Assembly (NCBI GenBank): GCA_016218805.1
Contig: JACRCW010000054.1
Coordinates: 1-32,245, forward strand
DNA from: Deltaproteobacteria bacterium
Lineage (GTDB): Bacteria > Myxococcota > JACRCW01
Direction: 5' to 3'
DNA: 32,245 nt
A model generated the notes under the pieces. That model saw nothing but the letters and a program-made list of their open reading frames with translations. It was not told the origin of the DNA and searched no databases. Shown one piece after another: positions 2,103-24,650 of the stretch (position 1 is the first letter of the stretch; each line of letters begins with the position of its first letter). A program made the translations under genes and the position numbers.

Positions 2103-5100
2103 TCACGCCAGCCCAAAGAACTTCTGGAACTGCAGCAACAATTCCGGATCATTGCTCTTGACCGTGCCGCTCATGAACTCCATCACCGTGGGCGTGTAGC
2201 GCTCCTCCACGATGCGGCGGAACATCTCCGCGGAGGTTTTCAGCACGCAATCCGCCTGGTCCGCCGTCTTCTGGTTCACAATGGACACGGCATCCTTGGT
2301 GACCTTCACGGTCCACTTGGCGTCCGCCCCGTCACCCAGGCTGAAATAGTACGTGACCGGCTGCTCCACGCGCGCGGGGTCAAACGTTTTCTCCAGTGAT
2401 CCAAACAGCCGGGGCAGCAGCGGCCCGTCATCCACGGGGCCGCCCACGTCCGCATCCGCGCGGGACAGGTCCAGCAATGACCCGTCCCGCAGCAACTCCA
2501 CCGCGCGCTGGCACAACCGCGCCGCCTCCCGGTACGCGTCTGAATGTCCCAGTCCGCGCGTGCGCTCCCGCAGCTGCTCAATGGTCAGCGGCACGCCGAA
2601 CGTCACCGTGAGGTCCCGCTTGCGCGGAATGATGGCGCCCTTGGGCATGCTGTCATGCGTGCCGCCCAGCCACACCGGCACAATGTCCACGCCGTGGTGC
2701 AGCGCCAGGTAGCCCAGCACGGACTTGAATTCCTGCATTTGCCCGTCGGGACTGCGCGTGCCTTCCGGGAACAGCAGCAGGCTCCGGCCCTGGTCCAGCA
2801 CTTCCCCCGCCTTGCGGAGGGACTGCTTGAGGCTGCCGCTGCGCTCCATGGGGACCAGGTTGGTGAAGTTCTCAAAATAGAACCGCCGCAAAGGCCCGTC
2901 GAAGAAGTAGTCCCGCGCAGCCAGCGATTGCAGGTCCAGCCCCGCATCCCCCAGGGCCACCTTCACCAGCCCCATGTCCAGGTGTGACGCATGGTTGGCG
3001 GCGACAATGAGGTTGCGGTTGAGCGGCACCCGTTCCCGCCCGTGCACGCGCGTGCGGAACGCGCGCTCATACAAGGCGCGCTGGCCCACCCCCAGCACGT
3101 CCCGCACCACGCGTTTCACCGGCGCCGGCAACTCCACGTCCACGTCCTCCGGGTTGACCACGGGCGAGGGGTCCCTGGGCGTGGGATCACCCAGGACGGG
3201 CGCGGGCGTGGTCCGGATCAATTCCACCAATTCCTGCACTGTGTCCGCCTGCGTCACGCGGTCCGGGTCCACCGGCCCGCCGCGCAGGCGCTCCAGCGCT
3301 ACCAGGATTTCCGTCCGCGCCAGGCTGTCCACGCCCAGGTCCGCCGCCAGGCGCGCGTTGATGCGGACATCCGCCACGGGGCGGGCCAGCGCTTCGGCCA
3401 CGGCCACGCGCACCCGCAACGCCAGGCCCTCCTCCAGCACCGCGGATTCCGCCACGCCCTGCTGCCGCTGCTCCTCCAGCCGCTGCAACTCCTGCACAAC
3501 TTCTGAACGCCGCACCTTGCGCGTGGCCGTGCGCGGCAGGGGAATAGATGTGGAATGCACCACCCGCGGCCGGTCATTTTCGGGCAATTGCCGGATGCGA
3601 TCCCGCAGCGCGCGCTCCGACCTCGCGCGGATGAAAGCCTCACTTTCGCCTTCACCCGGCGTGCGCGGGACCCAGAGGCAGGCAACCACTTCGCCGCCCT
3701 GCCCGTCCGGGAGCCCCACAATGGAAATCTCGGAAACGCCCTCCACGCCCTCCAGGTCCGCCTCCACCTGGTCCGGGTACACGTTCTCCCCGGACGCGGA
3801 AACAATGACTTCCTTAGCCCGCCCCACGACAAACAGCCGCCCCTTGCTGTCAATCCGCCCCAGGTCCCCCGTGCGCAGCCACCCATCGGTGATGACCGCC
3901 TGCGTGGCCTCCGCGTTGTCCTCATAACCGCGCATGATGGTGGGACCGCGCGCCAGGATCTCCCCCACCCCGGCGGCGTCCGGCGCATCAATCTTCATCT
4001 CCACGCCGGGCACCGCCACGCCCACGCTGCCTGGGAGCGCGTACTTGCCCATGCGGTGCACGCTGATCACCGGCGAAGCCTCCGTGAGGCCGTAGCCCTG
4101 CAGCAGTTCAAACCCCAGCCCCTGGAAGAACTCCTGCGTGGACGGCGGCAGCGCGGCGCCGCCGGAGATGAGCGCGCGGATGCGGCCCCCCATGCGGTCA
4201 TGCGCGTCACGGAAGAACAGCCGCCCCAGGTTCAGGTTCATGTCGCGCCACAACCAGCGGTTGAGCGCCAGTAACCCGTCAAAGACCGCCGTGGTCACCA
4301 GTCCGCGCTGCTGCACTTCACTGCGAATGCGCCGTTCCAGCAGTTGCCACAGCGCGGGCACGCCAATCATCGCCGTCACGCCGCCGGCTTTCATGCCCGC
4401 GCGCAATTGCTCGGCATTGATTTCCTGCAGATACGTGACACGGCCGCCCTTGTGCAGCGGCATCAACAGCCCGCCGGTGAATTCAAACGTATGGTGCAGC
4501 GGCAGGACGGACAGGCCCGCATCCCGGTGGCCCAGCGGGAAGATGGGCGCCAGGCCGGCCATGAGGCTGGTGAAGTTGGCGTGCGTGAGTTGCACGCCCT
4601 TGGGCTTGCCGGTGGTTCCGGACGTGAAAATCAGGCTCGCAATCTCGGAGCGCTGCGCGCGCGGCACCAGCGCCCGGGGCGTGTCCCATGCGGCGCGGTC
4701 CGTGGCCTTTTCCGCCAGTTCCTCCAGCACCAGGATGTGCGGGACGTGCTGCGGGTCTTCGTCAGATGAACCGAGCAGGTCATTGAGCAGCCGCCCGATG
4801 GCCTGGTGGCGCTTGCGTGACAACAGCACGGCCGAGGCACGGGAGGCGCGCACCAGGCGGGCCAGCGTCTCCGCCGGCAACGCGTGATCCACGGGGACCG
4901 CCGTGCCGCCCGCCTTGAGGATGGCGAAATACCCGATGGACCACGCGGACTGCCCCTCCGAGCACAGCACCACGCGGTCCTGCGGCTTCACGCCCATTCC
5001 CAGCAATTCCACCGCGGCGGCATCCGCGCGGTCCCGCAGTTGGCGGTAGGTGACCTGCTTGAGCCCGTCCGGCGTGAGGTCCTGCAGCGCAATCTTGTTG

Positions 5101-10751: not shown

Positions 10752-11390
10752 ATGCCAGACCGCCGCGACGTCCGCGCCCGCTATGACACGCTGAGCCGGT
10801 ACTACGACGTCATTGCGGGGTGGACCGAGCAGCCCGCGCGCGACCGCGGGCTGGCGCGGCTGGCGCCGGCCGCGGGGGAGCGCATCGTTGAGGTGGGCGT
10901 GGGCACAGGGCGCACGGCGGCGGCCCTGGCCCGCGCGGTGGGGCCGCTGGGGATGGTGGTGGCGGTGGATGTGTCCGCCGGGATGTTGCGCAGGACGGTG
11001 GCCCGCGGCGGCCCTTCCCTTCACGCGGCGCGCGCGTGCTGCGGGGACGCGGTGGCCCTGCCGCTGCGGGCGGGGGCCTTTGACGCGGCGTGCATGATCT
11101 TCACGCTGGAGCTCCTCCCGGACGGTGAGATGGCCCAGGCGGCGCACGAACTGGCGCGCGTGCTGCGCCCGGGCGGGCGGGCCTGCGTGGTGAGCCTGTC
11201 ATCGGCCGGGGCGGAGACCATGGCGCGGCGGTGGTACGTCCGCGGTCACCAGGCGTTCCCCGGTGCGCTGGATTGCCGCCCCATTGCGGTGAAACCCGTC
11301 CTGGAAAGCGCGGGATTCAGCAGTATTTCAGTGGATTCCATGCGGCTGTGGGGCCTGCCGGTTGACGTCGTCACGGGATGCCGGACGTGA
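10752..11390 (+). CDS. class I SAM-dependent methyltransferase (UbiE/COQ5-type)
   Basis: 212 residues from the ATG at 10752. Motif I, EVGVGTGRT (47-55), binds S-adenosylmethionine. It is followed by VVAVD (69-73), whose Asp contacts the ribose, by CGDAVALPL (97-105), and by the LRPGG loop (138-142) common in the Methyltransf_11 group. The N-terminal YDTLSRYYDV matches the start of UbiE-like enzymes. The substrate cannot be read from the sequence. No strong Shine-Dalgarno is visible before this Met. An open frame continues upstream across the rdgC gene but is an antisense shadow. The stop codon lies one base before a 140-bp inverted-repeat element, so that element may provide or interrupt the 3' end. 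Confidence 0.85.
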   Translation: MPDRRDVRARYDTLSRYYDVIAGWTEQPARDRGLARLAPAAGERIVEVGVGTGRTAAALARAVGPLGMVVAVDVSAGMLRRTVARGGPSLHAARACCGDAVALPLRAGAFDAACMIFTLELLPDGEMAQAAHELARVLRPGGRACVVSLSSAGAETMARRWYVRGHQAFPGALDCRPIAVKPVLESAGFSSISVDSMRLWGLPVDVVTGCRT

Positions 11391-11391
11391 T

Positions 11392-11531
11392 CCTGGGAGG
11401 GCGAGGCTCCTGCCGAGCCCGCGTCCGGCGGTCACCGCTTCACGGCAGCGCGCACTCGCACCGGGCGTCACCCGGAGGGAGCCGCGCCGCGCGCCTGGCC
11501 CAGGGCTCGGCAGGAGCCTCGCCCTCCCAGG
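11392..11531. mobile_element. 140-bp element with perfect 29-bp inverted ends (MITE/REP-like)
   Basis: Arms 11392-11420 and 11503-11531 are perfect reverse complements over 29 bases, around an 82-base G/C-rich centre. The arm core reads GGGAGGGCGAGGCTCCTGCC. Read on the minus strand it would encode a WEGEAPAEP-type peptide, which I recall as a common spurious protein fragment in environmental genomes, so the sequence is probably a dispersed family. No clear target-site duplication and no transposase are present, so any mobility would be in trans. It lies exactly between the convergent methyltransferase and nuoF genes and its transcript would form a long hairpin, so it may also act as a bidirectional terminator. 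Confidence 0.7.
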
Positions 11532-11585
11532 TGCTCCTACGGCCGACTTTGTTCTCGGTGACGTCGTCGCGTGTGTTCCAGCTCC

Positions 11586-13697: not shown

Positions 13698-15080
13698 GTG
13701 TCCCAGCCGCTGCATTTCCTGGAGAGACTGGCGCGCGTGACGCCCGCGGAGGCGGCGCTGGCCAGTGAGCTGGCGCGTGATTCGGTGGCGGTGCGCGGCT
13801 TCCTGGTGAAGGCACGCGCCCGGGATCCGGCAGTGCCTGACGCGGAACGCTTTGCGCTGCCGCTGTCCGCCGCCGCCCAGCGCAGCCAGATGATTGTGAG
13901 CCGGGACGGGAACGCGGTGACGTGCCTGGGGCCGGGGATGGAGCACAAGGACGCCGCGGCGCTGCCGTGGGCGTGGGTGGACGCGTTTGCGCGGGAGCTG
14001 CGCGAGGCGGTGCACGCCACGGTGGTCCTGCAGCGCGAGGTGGCCGGCCAGGCGGGCGGCCACGTGCTGGACCGGCTGGTGCACGCTCCCGGATCCATCA
14101 CGCACGCGGACCACGCCACGCTGGAGGCGCTGGTGCCGTTGCTGGGCGGGCTGCTGACGGAGAGCGTGCTGATGGCGGCGGACCTGGTGCGGACGGAGAT
14201 TCCCGCGTGGGCTGCGGGCCGCCACGTGGATGACGCCACGCTCAGCGAGTGGTGGACGCGTTACCTGCGCGGGGCGCTGGCGATGTTCCTGGGCGGGGCG
14301 CGGGCGTTTCCGGCGCGCGCGGTGGTGCTGCACGCGGCCACGCCGGACGTGTACCTGTCCGCGCGGGCCTCCTGGTGGGCGGCACGGCGCGGCGCGGAGA
14401 CGCTGGACGTGCTGGAGGAGTTGGCCGCACAGCACGGGCTGTGGGGCGGGGAGCATGAGCTGTCCGTGGCGGTGGCGACGGAACAGCCGCTGCTGGCGGG
14501 GCGGGTGCGTAAGTTTGTCAAAACGCACCGGCACCAGGCCGGCGCGCAGTACCTGGAGTTGCTGCAGCGTGCGCTGGATGATCCGCGGGGCGCGCTGGAC
14601 CACGCGCTGTGGGCGGTGCTGCCGGTGCTGCCGGCGGTGCTGGTCCCCGCTGAAGCGGGCCCCGGGTCCCCGCTGTCCACCGAAGCGCTGGTGGAGACGC
14701 GCCGGGGGCTGGGCGCGGTGCCGGGTGAGGCGCCGCGCAAGGTGGCCGCGCGTATGCACCGGCGGCTGGGCCAGCTGGTGGATGAATGGATGGACGGTGA
14801 CGACGCCACGCGGCTGCGTCACTGGCGGCGCCTGGTGCGGTGGACGCCGCTGCGGTTCAACGCGTTCCCGCTGGGCACGCTGTTGTGTGCGCGCGCCCCG
14901 CGCGAGGCGTTTCTTCCTGACGTCACGCCCACGCGGGACTGGGACGCGGACACGGGGCGCGCCTACCTGGGCACCGTGCTGCGCGGGCTGGCCCGCCCGG
15001 CGGCCCCCCGCCCGGGACCCAATGCACCCTGCCCGTGCGGCAGTGGTAAGAAATACAAAAAGTGCCACGGGCGCGCGTGA
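13698..15080 (+). CDS. large helical protein with C-terminal SEC-C zinc motif
   Basis: 460 residues. The only recognisable domain is at the C-terminus: CPCGSGKKYKKCHG (445-458), the SEC-C motif that binds one Zn through Cys445, Cys447, Cys456 and His457, as at the end of SecA. The preceding 440 residues are rich in Ala, Leu and Arg, mostly helical, and match no family I know; SecA motor motifs are absent. The start has no strong ribosome site, but the frame shows strong coding bias from here. The last 48 bases of this gene are duplicated at 17002-17049 beyond the ATPase module, so the present 3' end may have been rebuilt by an insertion. Confidence 0.82.
   Translation: MSQPLHFLERLARVTPAEAALASELARDSVAVRGFLVKARARDPAVPDAERFALPLSAAAQRSQMIVSRDGNAVTCLGPGMEHKDAAALPWAWVDAFARELREAVHATVVLQREVAGQAGGHVLDRLVHAPGSITHADHATLEALVPLLGGLLTESVLMAADLVRTEIPAWAAGRHVDDATLSEWWTRYLRGALAMFLGGARAFPARAVVLHAATPDVYLSARASWWAARRGAETLDVLEELAAQHGLWGGEHELSVAVATEQPLLAGRVRKFVKTHRHQAGAQYLELLQRALDDPRGALDHALWAVLPVLPAVLVPAEAGPGSPLSTEALVETRRGLGAVPGEAPRKVAARMHRRLGQLVDEWMDGDDATRLRHWRRLVRWTPLRFNAFPLGTLLCARAPREAFLPDVTPTRDWDADTGRAYLGTVLRGLARPAAPRPGPNAPCPCGSGKKYKKCHGRA
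15033..15080 (+). repeat. left copy of 48-bp SEC-C 3'-end direct repeat (attL-like)
   Basis: These 48 bases, from the CCG codon of CPCGSG to the TGA stop of the SEC-C gene, recur at 17002-17049 with 47 of 48 identical; the difference is C against T at the third-last codon. Identity stops at both borders: upstream codons differ (TGC here, CGA there) and the base after TGA differs. It contains an A-rich stretch, AAGAAATACAAAAAG, that stands out in this G/C-rich region. Confidence 0.9.
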
Positions 15081-15228
15081 CCAGGGCCGTGCCAGGAGCC
15101 GCTGGTGGCGCGGAACTCGCGGTGACGCGTGGACGGTCAGGGTCAGGACGTCCGCTTTGCGCGTCAGGAAGCTGGAATCCGACGCCCGGGTGGCCTACAT
15201 CCAACGATGGACGGCCTCCGAGGACTCC

Positions 15229-16296
15229 ATGGCCCTGATCGAACAGCTCGACATCGCCGGCTATCGCCTGTTCGACCAGTTGCGGGTCAGCGGCCTGACC
15301 CGAGTGAACCTGGTTGTCGGGAGGAACAACGCCGGCAAGACGGCGCTCCTCGAGGCCGTGGAGGCGCTCGTCTCGGAGGGGTCGCCCTTCGCGTTTTATC
15401 GGGCGTCGCTGGAGCGCGGCGAGACACGCCGCGGCGTGCTCAAGCAGGACTCCGAGGCAATCGCGATCGATGTGCGCCGCTGGTTCCGAAACCACCTCCT
15501 GAAGCCGGGCGCCCACATCCGGATTGCGTCGGGCGGCTCGCTGCCGCGCGTTCTCGAGTGCAAGGTCCTCGAGGTTTCTTCCGACCAGGGCCCACCCTTT
15601 GTTCCCGGGGGCTTTCGTCTCGACACCAAGCGGGAGCCGCGCGACCGGGCCTCCGAACTACAACTGCCCGTCCAACCGAACGGTCTCCTCGGTGCCCCTC
15701 CAGTGACGATGTTTCTTGATTTCGGACCCACGCTCCCGAGGCCGGTCAGTTTTGTGACGACGCGGCGCCAGACTGTGACGGAGCTTCTTCCCCTGTGGTC
15801 GCGCGTTGTGCTGACGCCCCAGGAGACGGACGTCGCCGTCGCGCTCCGTGCGATCGACCCGGCGATCGAGCGCGTGGCGCTGTCGGGGCTCGGCGACGAA
15901 GCGGTCGGTTCCGTGCTCCTCCATGGCGCGGTCGAGCCGGTCCCGCTGGGCAGCCTCGGCGAAGGCACCACGCGCATGCTCGCCATCGCGCTGAGCCTCG
16001 CCACCGCGAAGGGAGGCTTCCTCCTGGTGGACGAGATCGACACCGGCCTCCACCACACGGTCATGGCGGACATGTGGCGACTGGTCATTGAGACGGCGAA
16101 GCGTCTCGACGTGCAGGTGTTTGCGACCACGCACAGCCTCGATTGCGTCAATGCCCTGGGCTGGCTCGTGGAGACGAACGTGGCGCTCGGCGCGGAGGTT
16201 TCGCTCCACCGGATTGAGCGTGGCCGCGACCGGACCACGCCTTACACCGCCGCGGAGATTGCCGCCGCTGCCCGTCACCACAGCGAGCTGCGCTGA
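15229..16296 (+). CDS. AAA/ABC-type ATPase of the OLD-like group, first gene of a putative defence pair
   Basis: 355 residues from the ATG at 15229, preceded by GAGG. The N-terminus (IAGYRLFDQL..L..VNLVVGRNNAGKT) is that of RecF/OLD-like chromosomal ATPases. It has Walker A GRNNAGKT (31-38), ABC-type signature SLGEGTTRM (242-250), Walker B LLVDEIDTG (265-273, catalytic Glu269) and H-loop ATTHS (299-303). The stretch from about 60 to 235 is the variable insert between the two ATPase halves. No TOPRIM domain is fused; it seems to be supplied by the next gene, whose ATG overlaps this TGA by one base (TGATG). No membrane segment or transporter subunit is nearby. A role in anti-phage defence or DNA surveillance is inferred from this architecture. 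Confidence 0.85.
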   Translation: MALIEQLDIAGYRLFDQLRVSGLTRVNLVVGRNNAGKTALLEAVEALVSEGSPFAFYRASLERGETRRGVLKQDSEAIAIDVRRWFRNHLLKPGAHIRIASGGSLPRVLECKVLEVSSDQGPPFVPGGFRLDTKREPRDRASELQLPVQPNGLLGAPPVTMFLDFGPTLPRPVSFVTTRRQTVTELLPLWSRVVLTPQETDVAVALRAIDPAIERVALSGLGDEAVGSVLLHGAVEPVPLGSLGEGTTRMLAIALSLATAKGGFLLVDEIDTGLHHTVMADMWRLVIETAKRLDVQVFATTHSLDCVNALGWLVETNVALGAEVSLHRIERGRDRTTPYTAAEIAAAARHHSELR

Positions 16297-16961
16297 TGGG
16301 CCGTCCGGCCAGGTCCAGCCCGCACCGCCTCCTCGTCGAGGGACAGGACGACCTCTTCGCGATCGCGCACCTGATCCGCGCCCGCTTCGCTGCGGCGCAA
16401 TCCGCGATTGACCTCGACGCACCTTCGCCGAACGCGCCGTGGATTGAACAGCACGACGGCCTCGAAAACCTGCTCAAGGCGGGCAACATCGAGTCGGCGG
16501 CCAAGACGTATCTGCGACTCGGGATTGTCGTCGACGCCGATCAGGTGCCGGCAGCTCATTGGAGGGCCGTGGTGGGGCGACTCGCGACGGTCGGAGTGAC
16601 GGTCCCGGCGTCGCCCGCAACGGGAGGCGTTATCGTCCCGGGCTATCAGGAGGGGTGGCGGGTCGGCGTCTGGCTCATGCCGGACAACGCGCGCCCCGGT
16701 GCCCTTGAGGACTTCCTCCTGCCGCTCATGCCCGGGGAGGACGCGCTGTGGCCCGAAGCGGTCAGGGCCACTGACGCGGCCGTGCAGGTTGAACGCCGCT
16801 TCGGCGTCAACGACGACCTCAAGGCGCGCCTGCGGTGCTGGCTGGCCTGGCAGGCGGAGCCCGGCGCGAACCTCGGCGTGGCCGTATCCAGGGGCGTGCT
16901 CGACCCGCTCAGCCCAGCGGCCGATCCCTTCGCGCGGTGGGTCGAAGCCCTGTTCGCGTGA
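16296..16961 (+). CDS. DUF3226/TOPRIM-like protein coupled to the ATPase
   Basis: 221 residues. Motifs in order are LLVEGQDD (12-19), GIVVDAD (76-82) and GVWLMPDN then GALEDFL (124-141). This E...DxD pattern of acidic residues is what a TOPRIM-type metal site looks like and fits the DUF3226 family, whose members commonly sit beside AAA ATPases. Predicted candidate metal ligands are Glu15, Asp80, Asp82 and Glu138/Asp139. Start codon overlaps the ATPase stop, so the two are translationally coupled and probably form a complex. In OLD and PARIS systems an ATPase senses and a TOPRIM nuclease acts; the same division of labour here is inference. Nuclease activity is not shown by sequence alone. Confidence 0.8.
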   Translation: MGRPARSSPHRLLVEGQDDLFAIAHLIRARFAAAQSAIDLDAPSPNAPWIEQHDGLENLLKAGNIESAAKTYLRLGIVVDADQVPAAHWRAVVGRLATVGVTVPASPATGGVIVPGYQEGWRVGVWLMPDNARPGALEDFLLPLMPGEDALWPEAVRATDAAVQVERRFGVNDDLKARLRCWLAWQAEPGANLGVAVSRGVLDPLSPAADPFARWVEALFA

Positions 16962-17001
16962 CGCGTGCGCCGCGCAGCCCCTCACGCCCACGCGACTGCG
17001 A

Positions 17002-17049
17002 CCGTGCGGCAGTGGTAAGAAATACAAAAAGTGCCACGGGTGCGCGTGA
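17002..17049 (+). repeat. right copy of 48-bp SEC-C 3'-end repeat (attR-like or gene remnant)
   Basis: This copy reads through the SEC-C codons from PCGSG to the TGA but has no gene body in front: the bases before it (16962-17001) follow the DUF3226 stop and do not resemble the SEC-C protein. It could be the original 3' end of the SEC-C gene displaced by the insertion, or a remnant of a second SEC-C gene. Near-identity at synonymous positions argues against convergent coding of the same motif. Confidence 0.88.
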
Positions 17050-17094: not shown

Positions 17095-17514
17095 ATGGGA
17101 ACACTTGTCATGTTTGCGCTGCTGGCGGCGCAGTATCCCGGTGAGCCGCTGTGGCTTCCCGGCGGCTCCCCCTCGCGTTCCGGCCGCGTGGTTGAGCTGA
17201 GCCAGCCCTGCCCGCGCGTGGTTGCTGCGCTGCGACAGCACTACCGGAACGCGAGTGCCATTGTGTTTGACCGCAGCGACGGGGCGGACCGCCTCCGTTC
17301 CAAGCGTGTGGGGGACGCGTGGGAGCGCGCGGTGCTGGAACCGCGGGACGGCGCGTGCTGCGTGACCATCACGCCCATGTTCCGCGGGGCCGCCGTCGTC
17401 GTGGATGGCGCGCCGCCGCGGTTTGTGACGCTGGTGCTCCACCGCAATGACGAAGCCCGCCGGCAAGCCGCGGACATGGACCACCTGCGCAAGCCGGCCC
17501 GCCCGATCCGGTGA
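17095..17514 (+). CDS. hypothetical protein, possibly exported
   Basis: 139 residues. It opens with a short hydrophobic stretch (MGTLVMFALLAAQ) that could be a weak signal peptide, with an alternative start at the second Met five codons later. The rest is soluble with a pair of cysteines (CC, about residue 87-88) and short beta-strand-like segments ending in a basic tail. No family recognised. No clear ribosome site. It follows the right SEC-C repeat by 45 bases; its codon use (CTG, GTG, GCG) matches the chromosome rather than the insert. Coding is plausible from length and third-position bias but not certain. Confidence 0.55.
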   Translation: MGTLVMFALLAAQYPGEPLWLPGGSPSRSGRVVELSQPCPRVVAALRQHYRNASAIVFDRSDGADRLRSKRVGDAWERAVLEPRDGACCVTITPMFRGAAVVVDGAPPRFVTLVLHRNDEARRQAADMDHLRKPARPIR

Positions 17515-17626: not shown

Positions 17627-20170
17627 ATGCGTAGGCTCGTGGTTCGGCTGGCGTGGGTGGGAGTACTTGCCGGGTGTCCGCGGCCCGTGGACGAGACGGT
17701 CAAGTGCAACTCCACGGCGGACTGCACGCGCGTCCAACGCTGCCAGGACGGCATCTGCGTGCTGGATACCGGCGGGGGCAGTTCCGGTCTGGCTGGCGCG
17801 AGCAGCGGCAGCGCCACGGCGGCGTCCTCGTTGGGCGGGGTGAGCAGCGGATCTGGCGTGTCCAACAGCGGCTGCCCCCCGCAACACATGCGCTGTGATG
17901 GCCTGTGCGTGGACCCCGCCACCGACGAGATCTTCTGCGGCGCTTCCGCGGACTGTCTGGGCACCCACCGCGGGCAGATCTGCGTGGGGGAGGTGTGCGT
18001 TGCGGGAGCCTGCGTGTCGGGCTGCCCGTCGGAATACGGACTGGTCCAATGTTCCACGGCGTCCGGGACGGGCACGTACTGCGTGGATCCCGCCAGCAGC
18101 ACGGTGTTCTGCGGCGCGCATGATGACTGCGCCGGCACCAACGCGGGCGCCACCTGTGCGGAAGGCGGTACGTGCGTGGGAGGTACGTGCAGTTGCCCGG
18201 ACGGCGGGCGTGACTGCAACGGCGCCTGCGTACCCGGTGCGGCCTGTTGCACCACAACGGAGTGCTCGGCGGGCAGGCAGTGCCTGGGCGTGCCGGACGC
18301 GGGCCACAAGACCTGCGCGTGCCAACCTGGGGACGTGGACTGCGCGGGAACCTGCGTGAGCAACCAGGGATGTTGCAGCAACGCGGACTGCACCGGCGGC
18401 CGCATCTGTGGTGCGCCGGTGGTGGCGGGCGCCGGCCTCATCCGTCGCTGCGAATGCCCGGCGGGACAATCCCTCTGCAACGGGACCTGCTCAGTCAACG
18501 CGGGCTGCTGCGCGGCGGCGGACTGCGCGCCCGGCCAACAGTGCGTGCCCCCCGGTGACGGCGGAACCGCAATGATCTGTGTGTGTCCGGGCGGCACGTT
18601 TTGTGAGCCTTTGGCCCAATGCGTGGCGGCCGGAGCCTGCTGCCGCAACGCCGACTGCAGCGGCGGGCACGCGTGCCTTGCCGGGGCGGACGCGGGACCC
18701 TCCTGCGTGTGTCCGCTTGGAACGCGGGAGTGCCAGGGCGCCTGCCTGGCCACGGACCGCTGCTGCCTGGACGCGGAATGCACCGGCGGCCGGACCTGCC
18801 AGTCCAACAACTGCCTGTGCCCTGCGGGGACCCGCCTGTGCGGCAGCGCGTGCGTCCCGCTGGACCGTTGCTGCACGCAGCCCCAGGACTGCCCGGCGGG
18901 CCAGACCTGCCCCGCCGACGGAGCCTCCTGCCAGTGCACGGGCGGCGGCGAAGGCTGTGGGACCGGGTGCATCCCCGCCGGGACGTGCTGTTCCACCGTG
19001 GCCAGTTGCACCGGGGGCAAGGTCTGCACCGCTCCCGGTTCCACATGCACCTGCCCGTCGCCCACCCGGGAGTGCGGCGGGACGTGCATCCCCGCGGCGT
19101 CCTGCTGCGTGGATGCGGACTGCGGCGGCGGTCAGGTGTGCCCCAGCCCAGGCGCCACGTGCGCGTGCGCGGCCGGCACGCGCCTGTGCAACGCGGCGTG
19201 CATCCCGGACGGAACCTGCTGCTCCAGTACAGACTGCGGCGGTGGGAAGACGTGCGCCGCCCCGGGTGCAACCTGCGCCTGCCCGTCGACAAAGTACGAT
19301 TGCGCGGGAACTTGCGTGGCCAGCGGGACCTGCTGCAACGCGCCGGACACCTGCGTTGCCACCCAGCACTGCCCGGCACCCGGCGGGACCTGCGTGGCCA
19401 ACTGCGCCGCCAATGCGGGGGATGCGTGTGGAAGTTGCGGCGGCATCGTCCAATGCGACGGTTCCTGTTCCGTCGCCACGCCGGGGAATTACGCGCAAAC
19501 CTGCGGCAGCTGCGGTGGCACGTATCAATGCAACGGTTCCTGTTCCGTCGCCACACCGGGGAATTACGCGCAAAGCTGCGGCAGCTGCGGCGGCACCATC
19601 CAATGCGACGGTTCCTGTTCCGTCGCCACACCGGGGAATTACGCGCAAAGCTGCGGCAGCTGCGGCGGCACCATCCAGTGTGACGGCAACTGTTCCGTGG
19701 CCACGCCGGGGAATTACGCGCAAACCTGCGGCAGCTGCGGGGGCACCATCCAGTGTGGCGGCAACTGCTCCGTGGGGACGCCCGCAAACTACGGCCAGAA
19801 CTGCGGCAGCTGCGGTGGCACGTATCAATGCAACGGTTCCTGCTCCGTTGCCACGCCGGGGAACTACGGTGTGGCCTGCGGCAGCTGTGGCGGCACCATC
19901 CAGTGTGACGGCAACTGCTCCGTGGGGACGCCGTCCAACTACGGTGATCCGTGCGGCTGCTATGGGACCATCCAGTGCAACGGGTCGTGTTCGCAGGCGG
20001 CGTGTGGAGCCGGATTCTCCTGCTACGGCGGCGGCTGCAATCCCACGGCGGAATGGCCGTGCGGCGGCGCGGGCGGTTGGAATTGCGGCGGAACCAAGCA
20101 CTGCTGCGGTCAGGGCGAACCCGGGACGGATTCGCACGGGTGCATGAACAACGGCCTCAACTGCTATTGA
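17627..20170 (+). CDS. cysteine-rich repeat lipoprotein (Stig1-like / myxobacterial Cys-repeat type)
   Basis: 847 residues. The signal peptide ends in lipobox LAGC, with Cys17 as the lipidated residue. A short Ser/Gly linker (about 45-80) leads to two copies of a motif like CVDPATDxxxCGAxxDCxGTxxGxxC (about 85-175), which resembles the Stig1-like repeats seen in myxobacterial secreted proteins. Next come roughly a dozen units of about 35-40 residues with a CC..ADC.GG..C....CxCPxGTxxCxGxC pattern (about 180-595). The C-terminal array has seven 25-residue CGSCGGTIQCDGxCSVATPGNY units (601-775) and a degenerate eighth, then a Cys/Gly-rich cap. The many cysteines imply disulfide-bonded domains outside the cytoplasm, probably at the cell surface. 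Binding partner unknown. Confidence 0.88.
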   Translation: MRRLVVRLAWVGVLAGCPRPVDETVKCNSTADCTRVQRCQDGICVLDTGGGSSGLAGASSGSATAASSLGGVSSGSGVSNSGCPPQHMRCDGLCVDPATDEIFCGASADCLGTHRGQICVGEVCVAGACVSGCPSEYGLVQCSTASGTGTYCVDPASSTVFCGAHDDCAGTNAGATCAEGGTCVGGTCSCPDGGRDCNGACVPGAACCTTTECSAGRQCLGVPDAGHKTCACQPGDVDCAGTCVSNQGCCSNADCTGGRICGAPVVAGAGLIRRCECPAGQSLCNGTCSVNAGCCAAADCAPGQQCVPPGDGGTAMICVCPGGTFCEPLAQCVAAGACCRNADCSGGHACLAGADAGPSCVCPLGTRECQGACLATDRCCLDAECTGGRTCQSNNCLCPAGTRLCGSACVPLDRCCTQPQDCPAGQTCPADGASCQCTGGGEGCGTGCIPAGTCCSTVASCTGGKVCTAPGSTCTCPSPTRECGGTCIPAASCCVDADCGGGQVCPSPGATCACAAGTRLCNAACIPDGTCCSSTDCGGGKTCAAPGATCACPSTKYDCAGTCVASGTCCNAPDTCVATQHCPAPGGTCVANCAANAGDACGSCGGIVQCDGSCSVATPGNYAQTCGSCGGTYQCNGSCSVATPGNYAQSCGSCGGTIQCDGSCSVATPGNYAQSCGSCGGTIQCDGNCSVATPGNYAQTCGSCGGTIQCGGNCSVGTPANYGQNCGSCGGTYQCNGSCSVATPGNYGVACGSCGGTIQCDGNCSVGTPSNYGDPCGCYGTIQCNGSCSQAACGAGFSCYGGGCNPTAEWPCGGAGGWNCGGTKHCCGQGEPGTDSHGCMNNGLNCY
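19427..19951 (+). repeat. 75-bp coding tandem repeat, seven units
   Basis: Units begin at 19427, 19502, 19577, 19652, 19727, 19802 and 19877, each 75 bp and each encoding 25 residues starting CGSCGG. Some neighbours, such as units 2 and 3, differ at only a few bases. A degenerate unit follows from 19952. The repeat length is a multiple of three, so copy-number change would keep the frame. This pattern points to recent expansion by slippage or unequal recombination. Confidence 0.92.
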
Positions 20171-23447: not shown

Positions 23448-23484
23448 CCTTGAAATTTGGGAATCAGTATCCCTATTTTCAATG
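23448..23484. repeat. 37-bp palindrome next to the DUF4143 start
   Basis: It opens CCTTGAAATTTGGGAATC and closes TCCCTATTTTCAATG, ending five bases before the ATG at 23490. It therefore covers the place where a ribosome site would be, and no Shine-Dalgarno is visible. It could be an operator for autoregulation or an RNA hairpin that controls translation. Pairing is less complete than in the distal copy. Confidence 0.7.
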
Positions 23485-23489
23485 TGACC

Positions 23490-24650
23490 ATGAAACGCAT
23501 CCGTGCGCTCCGCGCCGTCCGGGAACTGTTCCGGACCCATCCGGTGGTGACCCTGGTAGGCCCGCGGCAGTGTGGGAAGACCACGCTGGCGCGGGAACTT
23601 GCGCGGGGCCCTGGGTTCAAGGGCGGGCCGGCAACGCGGTTTGACCTGGAGGACCCCGTGGACCTGGCCCGCCTGGCCAACCCGCGGCTGGCCCTGGAGA
23701 ACGCTTCCGGCCTGATCATTATTGACGAGGTGCAGCGCCGGCCCGACCTGTTCCCTCTCCTCCGCGTCCTGGTGGATCAGCGCCGTCCGCGGAAGTTCCT
23801 CATCCTGGGCAGCGCGTCCGGCGGCCTGCTGCGCCAGAACAGCGAGTCCCTGGCAGGCCGTTCAGCCTTCCTGGAGCTGACGCCCTTCTCCCACCACGAG
23901 GTCGTTGGCCTGGACCGGCTCTGGCTGCGCGGCGGCTACCCCCGCGCGTGGCTGGCGCGCACCGACGCAGACGCTTTCACGTGGTTGTCCCAGTACGTGA
24001 CCACGTTCCTGGAGCGGGACATCCCGGCGTTGGGTCTCCGCATCCCGCCGGTGGCGCTGCGGCGCCTGTGGATGATGCTGACGCACACGCACGGCCAGAT
24101 CCTCAACCGGTCAGACCTGGGACGCGCCATGGGCCTGGACCACAAGACGGTGGCGAATTACCTGGACGTGCTGACCTCCGGGTTCATGGTTCGGCAGCTG
24201 CAACCGTGGTTTGCCAACGTGAGCAAGCGACAGGTCAAAGCACCCAAGCTCTATTTCCGGGACTCCGGCCTGTTGCACCAGTTGCTCGGCGTGCGCTCAC
24301 GGGCCGCGCTGGACGTCCACCCGAGCGTGGGCGCGTCATGGGAGGGGTTTGCCCTGGAGTGCGTCATCCGCGAGCTGGGCCTTGGGCCCACGGAGGTCTT
24401 CTTCTGGTCCACGCACGCAGGCGCCGAGTTGGACCTTTTTGCGCACGTCAACGGGAGCCCCTACGGGTTTGAGATGAAGCGGGCGGACGCGCCCGTCCTC
24501 ACGCCGTCCATGCGCATTGTGCTGGAGGACCTCAAGCTCCGCCACCTGTTTGTCATCTTCCCGGGGAACACCACCTACCCGCTGCATGACCGGGTGACCG
24601 CCCTGGGGTTGGGGCTGCTGGACCGCCGCCTCTCCCGGTTGTTGCGCTGA
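23490..24650 (+). CDS. AAA_14 / DUF4143 family ATPase
   Basis: 386 residues from the ATG at 23490; TTG at 23457 and GTG at 23484 are in-frame alternatives that fall in the palindrome. Walker A GPRQCGKT (24-31), Walker B LIIIDE (75-80) and the sensor-like ILGSAS (105-110) form the AAA_14 domain. ERDIP (175-179) starts the DUF4143 part with a winged-helix-like segment. The C-terminal WEGFALECVI, then AELDLFAHV and FEMKRAD has the D...ExK spacing of a PD-(D/E)XK-like fold. Members of this family are often multi-copy in genomes and of unknown function. The gene stands alone and is convergent, 19 bases apart, with the haem lipoprotein gene. The predicted nuclease-like fold may be structural only. 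Confidence 0.88.
   Translation: MKRIRALRAVRELFRTHPVVTLVGPRQCGKTTLARELARGPGFKGGPATRFDLEDPVDLARLANPRLALENASGLIIIDEVQRRPDLFPLLRVLVDQRRPRKFLILGSASGGLLRQNSESLAGRSAFLELTPFSHHEVVGLDRLWLRGGYPRAWLARTDADAFTWLSQYVTTFLERDIPALGLRIPPVALRRLWMMLTHTHGQILNRSDLGRAMGLDHKTVANYLDVLTSGFMVRQLQPWFANVSKRQVKAPKLYFRDSGLLHQLLGVRSRAALDVHPSVGASWEGFALECVIRELGLGPTEVFFWSTHAGAELDLFAHVNGSPYGFEMKRADAPVLTPSMRIVLEDLKLRHLFVIFPGNTTYPLHDRVTALGLGLLDRRLSRLLR

Follow-up and report, generated by a model that had tools for sequence, protein, structure and literature searches.

The 32,245-bp window analysed here is one contig (C7) of a 6.43-Mb, 170-contig genome from a Deltaproteobacteria bacterium of the phylum Myxococcota. It carries a gene for a protein with a C-terminal SEC-C motif and, directly downstream, a two-gene unit encoding an ATPase and a DUF3226 protein, which has a copy of the final 48 bases of the SEC-C gene on either side. 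We propose that this unit is probably the remnant of an integrative element for which the SEC-C gene end was the attachment site. The original prediction had described the locus in this way, with a compact defence-type cassette lacking an integrase of its own as the cargo. Evidence for the insertion of a foreign, defence-type pair at the SEC-C end comes from its codon usage, from its matches to PADLOC models and to known folds, from the absence of such a repeat at 16 comparable loci and from a reduced unit at a tRNA end in the same genome, while an empty site, another cargo at the site or a recombinase acting in trans did not come to light.

The direct repeat and the end of the SEC-C gene

The SEC-C gene (13698..15080, plus strand) starts with GTG and encodes 460 amino acids (aa), with the motif at residues 442-459 (Pfam PF02810, 36.7 bits). 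A repeat search of the window returned a 48-nucleotide direct repeat at 15033-15080 and 17002-17049 with 98% identity and a start-to-start distance of 1969 bp, and a script found the copies identical at 47 of 48 positions, with a C to T change at position 40 as the sole mismatch. The recurrence of the gene end, up to and including the stop codon, with which the prediction had set out was thereby confirmed. On its right side the repeat identity stops with the final base of the SEC-C stop codon, and the base beyond each end differs between the copies. Of the abrupt ends claimed for both sides, the right one holds, whereas the 5' edge is slightly blurred, with CTGC plus two inserted bases ahead of the right copy and a 22-column similarity to the SEC-C gene that is discussed below.

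The left copy (15033..15080, plus strand; putative attL) spans the gene end through the stop codon and is the working end of the SEC-C gene, since SEC-C orthologues keep this tail. The motif is retained in four orthologues (P0001-P0004, 48-54% identity), and the more distant P0005 and P0007 terminate in KCHGRA like the left copy, the right copy reading KCHGCA. The right copy (17002..17049, plus strand; putative attR) is an orphan in which the beginning of the SEC-C motif is missing, and it was not taken as a gene because its open frame extends upstream across the DUF3226 gene in a different frame. Elements that insert at gene ends are flanked by a direct repeat derived from the gene end, the left copy of which completes the gene, with foreign cargo in between; a gene-end direct repeat with one copy completing the gene is present here.

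Chance offers no explanation for the repeat. When segments were drawn at random from the genome, a spanning direct repeat with a score of at least 25 was seen in 26 of 2884 draws, and the window locus scores 45. Four of these 26 hits were the window locus itself and the others came from 8 further stretches, several with duplicated genes.

The ATPase and DUF3226 genes

The sequence unique to the unit comprises 1921 bp (15081..17001) and holds two genes that overlap by one base. The first (15229..16296, plus strand) encodes a 355-aa AAA/ABC-type, AbiLi-like ATPase (PF13304, 67.9 bits), the second (16296..16961, plus strand) a 221-aa DUF3226 protein, a predicted Toprim nuclease. The two adjacent proteins match the A and B models of the PADLOC candidate system PDC-M38, the ATPase with 205.4 bits (PDC-M38A, PDLC04611) and the DUF3226 protein with 110.4 bits (PDC-M38B). 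In agreement with the earlier statement that only these two genes lie between the copies, codon-likelihood gene calls gave no further genes there, both open reading frames (ORFs) submitted to Pfam matched families, and six translations of 15081-15231 had no Pfam hit. No transposase was recognised between the repeats in the ORF list or by Pfam, and the unit does not class as an insertion sequence or transposon.

The predicted model of the ATPase (pLDDT 91.2) matched PtuA, OLD and Rad50 heads in Foldseek. The DUF3226 protein is predicted to have a Toprim fold with an acidic motif, as OLD nucleases do; its model also matched AriB. Because this model aligns best with the Toprim regions of OLD nucleases, the pair looks like a split OLD/PARIS-like system at the level of predicted structure.

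An identical DUF3226 protein is listed on two contigs, the longest of which has 1,990 bp. This is near the repeat-to-repeat length and equals 1969 bp plus a 21-base overlap, and a plain fragment of equal length is just as possible. The identical ATPase is listed on one contig, of 32,245 bp.

Codon usage and base composition

The ATPase-DUF3226 pair is foreign, whereas the SEC-C gene and the downstream gene look native. Against a codon profile built from ten host reference genes, the mean log-likelihood per codon was -1.016 and -1.017 for the pair, compared with -0.763 for the SEC-C gene, -0.898 for the gene at 17095-17514 and -0.628 to -0.981 for the ten references. The share CTG/(CTG+CTC) was 0.40 and 0.35 in the pair versus 0.62-0.98 in the 14 other genes tabulated; two other genes came nearly as low in log-likelihood, but none in CTG share. 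The stretch between the repeat copies has a G+C content of 69.1%, lower than that of the SEC-C gene (74.7%) and of the next 2 kb downstream (71.9%). A cargo that is foreign relative to its flanks, as expected of an integrative element, is thus indicated by codon usage. In an empty site the SEC-C gene would be followed by the native-looking downstream gene (17095..17514, plus strand, 139 aa), for which weak homologues turned up in 10 of the 188 other genomes searched.

Comparable loci in other genomes

The repeat belongs to the SEC-C site rather than to the gene pair. Other genomes of the phylum have DUF3226 matches at 35 places, and stretches were taken for 20 of these, of which 16 were testable (one ran off its contig, and three were without one of the genes by tblastn). 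At these 16 ATPase-DUF3226 loci the best flanking direct repeat scored at most 19, compared with 45 at the window, and a second ATPase-DUF3226-like pair of the same genome (C131) gave a flanking repeat score of 14.

For SEC-C tails as general attachment sites we obtained no support from E. coli yecA, the tail of which occurs at 5049 places in 5045 records, essentially once per record. A degenerate pattern of the tail matched 8 viral contigs, none of which had a second copy within the stretches examined, and two exact patterns gave 0 matches in viral contigs. Two phage records ending in yecA (P2-like by reading) were rejected, as the phage lies 5' of a complete yecA and hence not at the SEC-C end; of the other phage and plasmid matches to the tail, the three inspected (L049, L050 and L051) turned out to be two SEC-C genes and the end of a secA gene. 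In viral sequence, two loci that share related genes (L151 and L152) end about 70 bases past a SEC-C coding tail.

SEC-C tails across the genome

Of the 48 repeat bases, 33 (window 15036-15068) recur identically in the tail of secA on C95 (L004:13153-13185, minus strand), a gene otherwise unrelated to the SEC-C gene and assigned by reading of its 1024-aa translation. Part of the repeat identity is therefore a property of SEC-C coding DNA in this genome. From host codon frequencies, the chance of the same eleven codons in a given gene with this peptide is 7e-6, and the codons include rare ones. Among 12 SEC-C matches in the genome, the glycine that precedes the lysines is encoded by GGT in six of the eight complete motifs (window gene, secA, C54, the first gene on C64, C48 and C77), by GGC in the second gene on C64 and by GGA on C133, a count that leaves out the right copy in the window (GGT), an orphan tail on C72 (GGA), C44 and C88. 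GGT makes up 421 of 4016 glycine codons, which gives a binomial probability of 3e-5 for this bias. When only genes with a G+C content at third codon positions above 0.8 are considered, GGT is found in 5 of 6 here versus 0 of 27 in other genomes, and GGT-AAR is not a favoured combination, with 5 occurrences among 131 glycine-lysine pairs. When up to 3 mismatches were allowed, the 33-mer was present in 9 of 195 genomes of the phylum, all 8 besides the source genome differing from it at 3 positions, and a looser GGT pattern in 2 of 189, once outside the source genome. Such uniform tails could result from repeated tail exchange by insertion and excision, or from gene conversion.

The tail on C72 (C72:13048-13086; L110) was considered as a second tail beside an integrase and rejected, as it is an orphan with no partner among the 12 SEC-C matches. 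Its start at PCGSG coincides with that of the right copy in the window, and a tyrosine recombinase gene lies 4.4 kb away. The SEC-C protein gene on C133 (L113) is located near HEC-01A-like and PDC-M41-like genes, perhaps in a defence island.

Repeat-bounded modules in the same genome

A scan of 1,246,196 bases of the genome for direct repeats 350-8500 bp apart revealed three further two-gene modules between perfect repeats. On C85 (L115:7788-17092) the end of a tRNA-Met gene is present three times: an integrase gene (PF00589) follows the first copy, the second copy lies 8.07 kb on, and after it come 1158 bp with a ParE toxin (PF05016) and an antitoxin (PF09720), closed by a 26-base third copy. 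By reading, this 1158-bp unit starts like the first element, including part of the integrase reading frame. On C38 (L219:18364-19772) a ParE toxin and a putative antitoxin (RHH_5 below cut-off) lie between perfect 27-base copies, 70 bp after tRNA-Pro, with an integrase-like fragment recognised by reading only and no integrase by Pfam. The module on C54 (C54:57477-58223) consists of DUF4160 and DUF2442 between perfect 35-base copies (L082:478-512 and 1190-1224) and is intergenic.

This genome does contain a reduced unit that carries its cargo between attachment copies, and the unit in the window fits that picture. Of the four ParE matches in the genome, two have repeats and two do not. Repeats in 4 of 7 modules are a biased count, since the window was given and three modules were found via the repeat scan; C131, C28 and C162, which were found otherwise, have none. 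Among the other repeat-bounded segments inspected, L183 carries a repeated hairpin element, and L187, L225 and L181 gave no clear module.

Other features of the window

A match to the PADLOC candidate PDC-S01 (274.2 bits) lies at 23457-24650, 6.4 kb downstream of the unit. A 41-base inverted repeat with 88% complementarity and 82 bases between its arms is located at 11380-11543, and a repeat with a 75-base period and six overlapping copies lies at 19352-19943 within a cysteine-rich ORF.

Origin of the unit

Several observations weigh against integration at the SEC-C gene and have to be set against the evidence above. Neither a site-specific recombinase nor a recognisable remnant of one is present in the unit, in which only the ATPase and the DUF3226 protein were recognised. 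The search of relatives for the 48-bp site and the SEC-C gene that had been suggested as a check was carried out, and no close SEC-C orthologue with its context was found in 58 relatives (only partial homologues of 34% identity, the motif aside) or in the class (2 genomes). Of two scans of genome contigs for the SEC-C gene, the first gave no relative and the second three distant loci among the 593 stretches listed; viral contigs likewise held no close orthologue with context. Neither an empty site nor another cargo at the site was found in the relatives, the class, the genome-contig or the viral-contig searches.

To the same side belongs a weak short stretch directly left of the right copy (16982..17001, plus strand), which in 22 alignment columns resembles the SEC-C gene at 14923-14944, 88 bp further up and in frame, as do the tandem SEC-C genes on C64 (L083:4373-8470), with one unassigned 247-aa gene between them and tails identical at 30 of 33 bases. 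Both keep in play a possibility named with the prediction, that of a second SEC-C gene which was later deleted. The right copy would then be the last piece of a tandem gene, the body of which was deleted at or after entry of the foreign pair between the two genes, and the in-frame TPTR stretch within the similarity as well as the orphan tail at C72 are in line with such a history. However, it requires duplication, insertion and a deletion halting at 48 bases, and the rest of the gene would be gone although the tail is still 47/48 identical. The extra similarity itself is modest and was spotted after the fact, its score being reached by 14 of 2000 shuffles and by 0 of 314 other window pieces. 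Such a trace is expected from a second-gene remnant, but an attachment site derived from the SEC-C gene would leave the same one, and we consider an origin from tandem genes unlikely.

Since the genome encodes Ku (C124), the pair could also have been captured during repair of a staggered break by Ku-type end joining, where fill-in of a 48-base overhang would create the direct repeat and no attachment site would be involved. The DUF4160/DUF2442 pair on C54 with its 35-base perfect repeat agrees with this and shows that repeats of such size also arise away from gene ends. Only by luck would a repeat formed in this way end exactly at the stop codon, however, and overhangs of 35-48 bases are long; capture during break repair seems quite improbable to us. 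The likeness of SEC-C tails in DNA across the genome (33/33 bases in secA, GGT in 6/8 complete motifs) would further suit homologous recombination with a donor that already had the pair beside a SEC-C tail, the tail serving as homology only. No donor was found, and 48 bases are short for RecA-type recombination, which makes this route highly improbable. Scans for terminators and promoters, together with the folding of hairpins in both downstream flanks, did not discriminate between the models.

We therefore favour an integrative element at the SEC-C gene end. A circular element with a copy of the last 48 bases may have recombined with the identical bases of the SEC-C gene, whereby the incoming copy would have restored the SEC-C protein. 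The old gene end would have come to lie 1969 bp further on, no longer functional, and would have gained one change there (R to C). A recombinase gene was possibly lost by deletion, or the recombinase acted in trans. If the cargo works as a split OLD nuclease in defence, the ATPase might keep the Toprim subunit inactive and release nucleic-acid cutting upon phage sensing.

A wider and rather doubtful extension is that this lineage has recombinase-less two-gene modules for defence or toxin-antitoxin functions that move in trans and are bounded by 26-48-bp copies of their landing sites, with SEC-C tails, that of secA included, as one shared landing sequence made uniform genome-wide by repeated insertion. 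If the SEC-C end does serve as attachment site, a zinc-motif coding tail common to many genes, among them secA, becomes a target for integration, and a defence pair shorter than 2 kb needs no recombinase of its own in order to move. This would help to explain the scatter of PDC-M38-type candidates and small toxin-antitoxin pairs among genomes, and gene-end repeats would be a simple mark for finding such modules.

Comparison with known systems

Targeting of the end of a protein-coding gene is exemplified by SGI1, an integrative element at the trmE 3' end (excerpt of PMC8409611). Like gene-end elements of this type, the unit in the window has a gene-end repeat, a completed gene and foreign cargo, but it differs in that it has no integrase, measures only 2 kb and sits at a SEC-C gene. 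Neither SEC-C nor secA as an integration site, nor a DUF3226 or PDC-M38 case, appeared among the top-ranked open-access titles, including the excerpt of PMC3491183; subscription papers were mostly outside this scope.

The microcin H47 island of E. coli is a small island between direct repeats without a recombinase of its own, for which the excerpted report shows excision and integration with host functions (PMC3191183). It has 13 kb, imperfect repeats of 148 and 144 bp with 76% identity, and antibacterial cargo (PMC3191183), and the excerpt of a follow-up study describes RecA-independent recombination between short direct repeats (PMC5426353). The unit in the window resembles this island in lying between direct repeats without a recombinase gene, here as read from sequence alone, and differs from it in its location at a SEC-C gene.

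With regard to the cargo, both proteins match the A and B models of PDC-M38, but these models are silent on flanking repeats, which the window has and the 16 loci of the phylum do not. PARIS (AriA and AriB) and OLD nucleases combine an ATPase with a Toprim domain (excerpt of PMC10568477). Like PARIS, the window distributes ATPase and Toprim over two genes, and the predicted structure matches both OLD Toprim regions and AriB; unlike PARIS, the Toprim partner is a DUF3226 protein, and the ATPase scores higher with PDC-M38A and AbiLi than with AriA. The unit is thus of a known kind, that of integrative elements at gene ends and of islands that have no integrase of their own, while the SEC-C site and the minimal split-OLD cargo are new.

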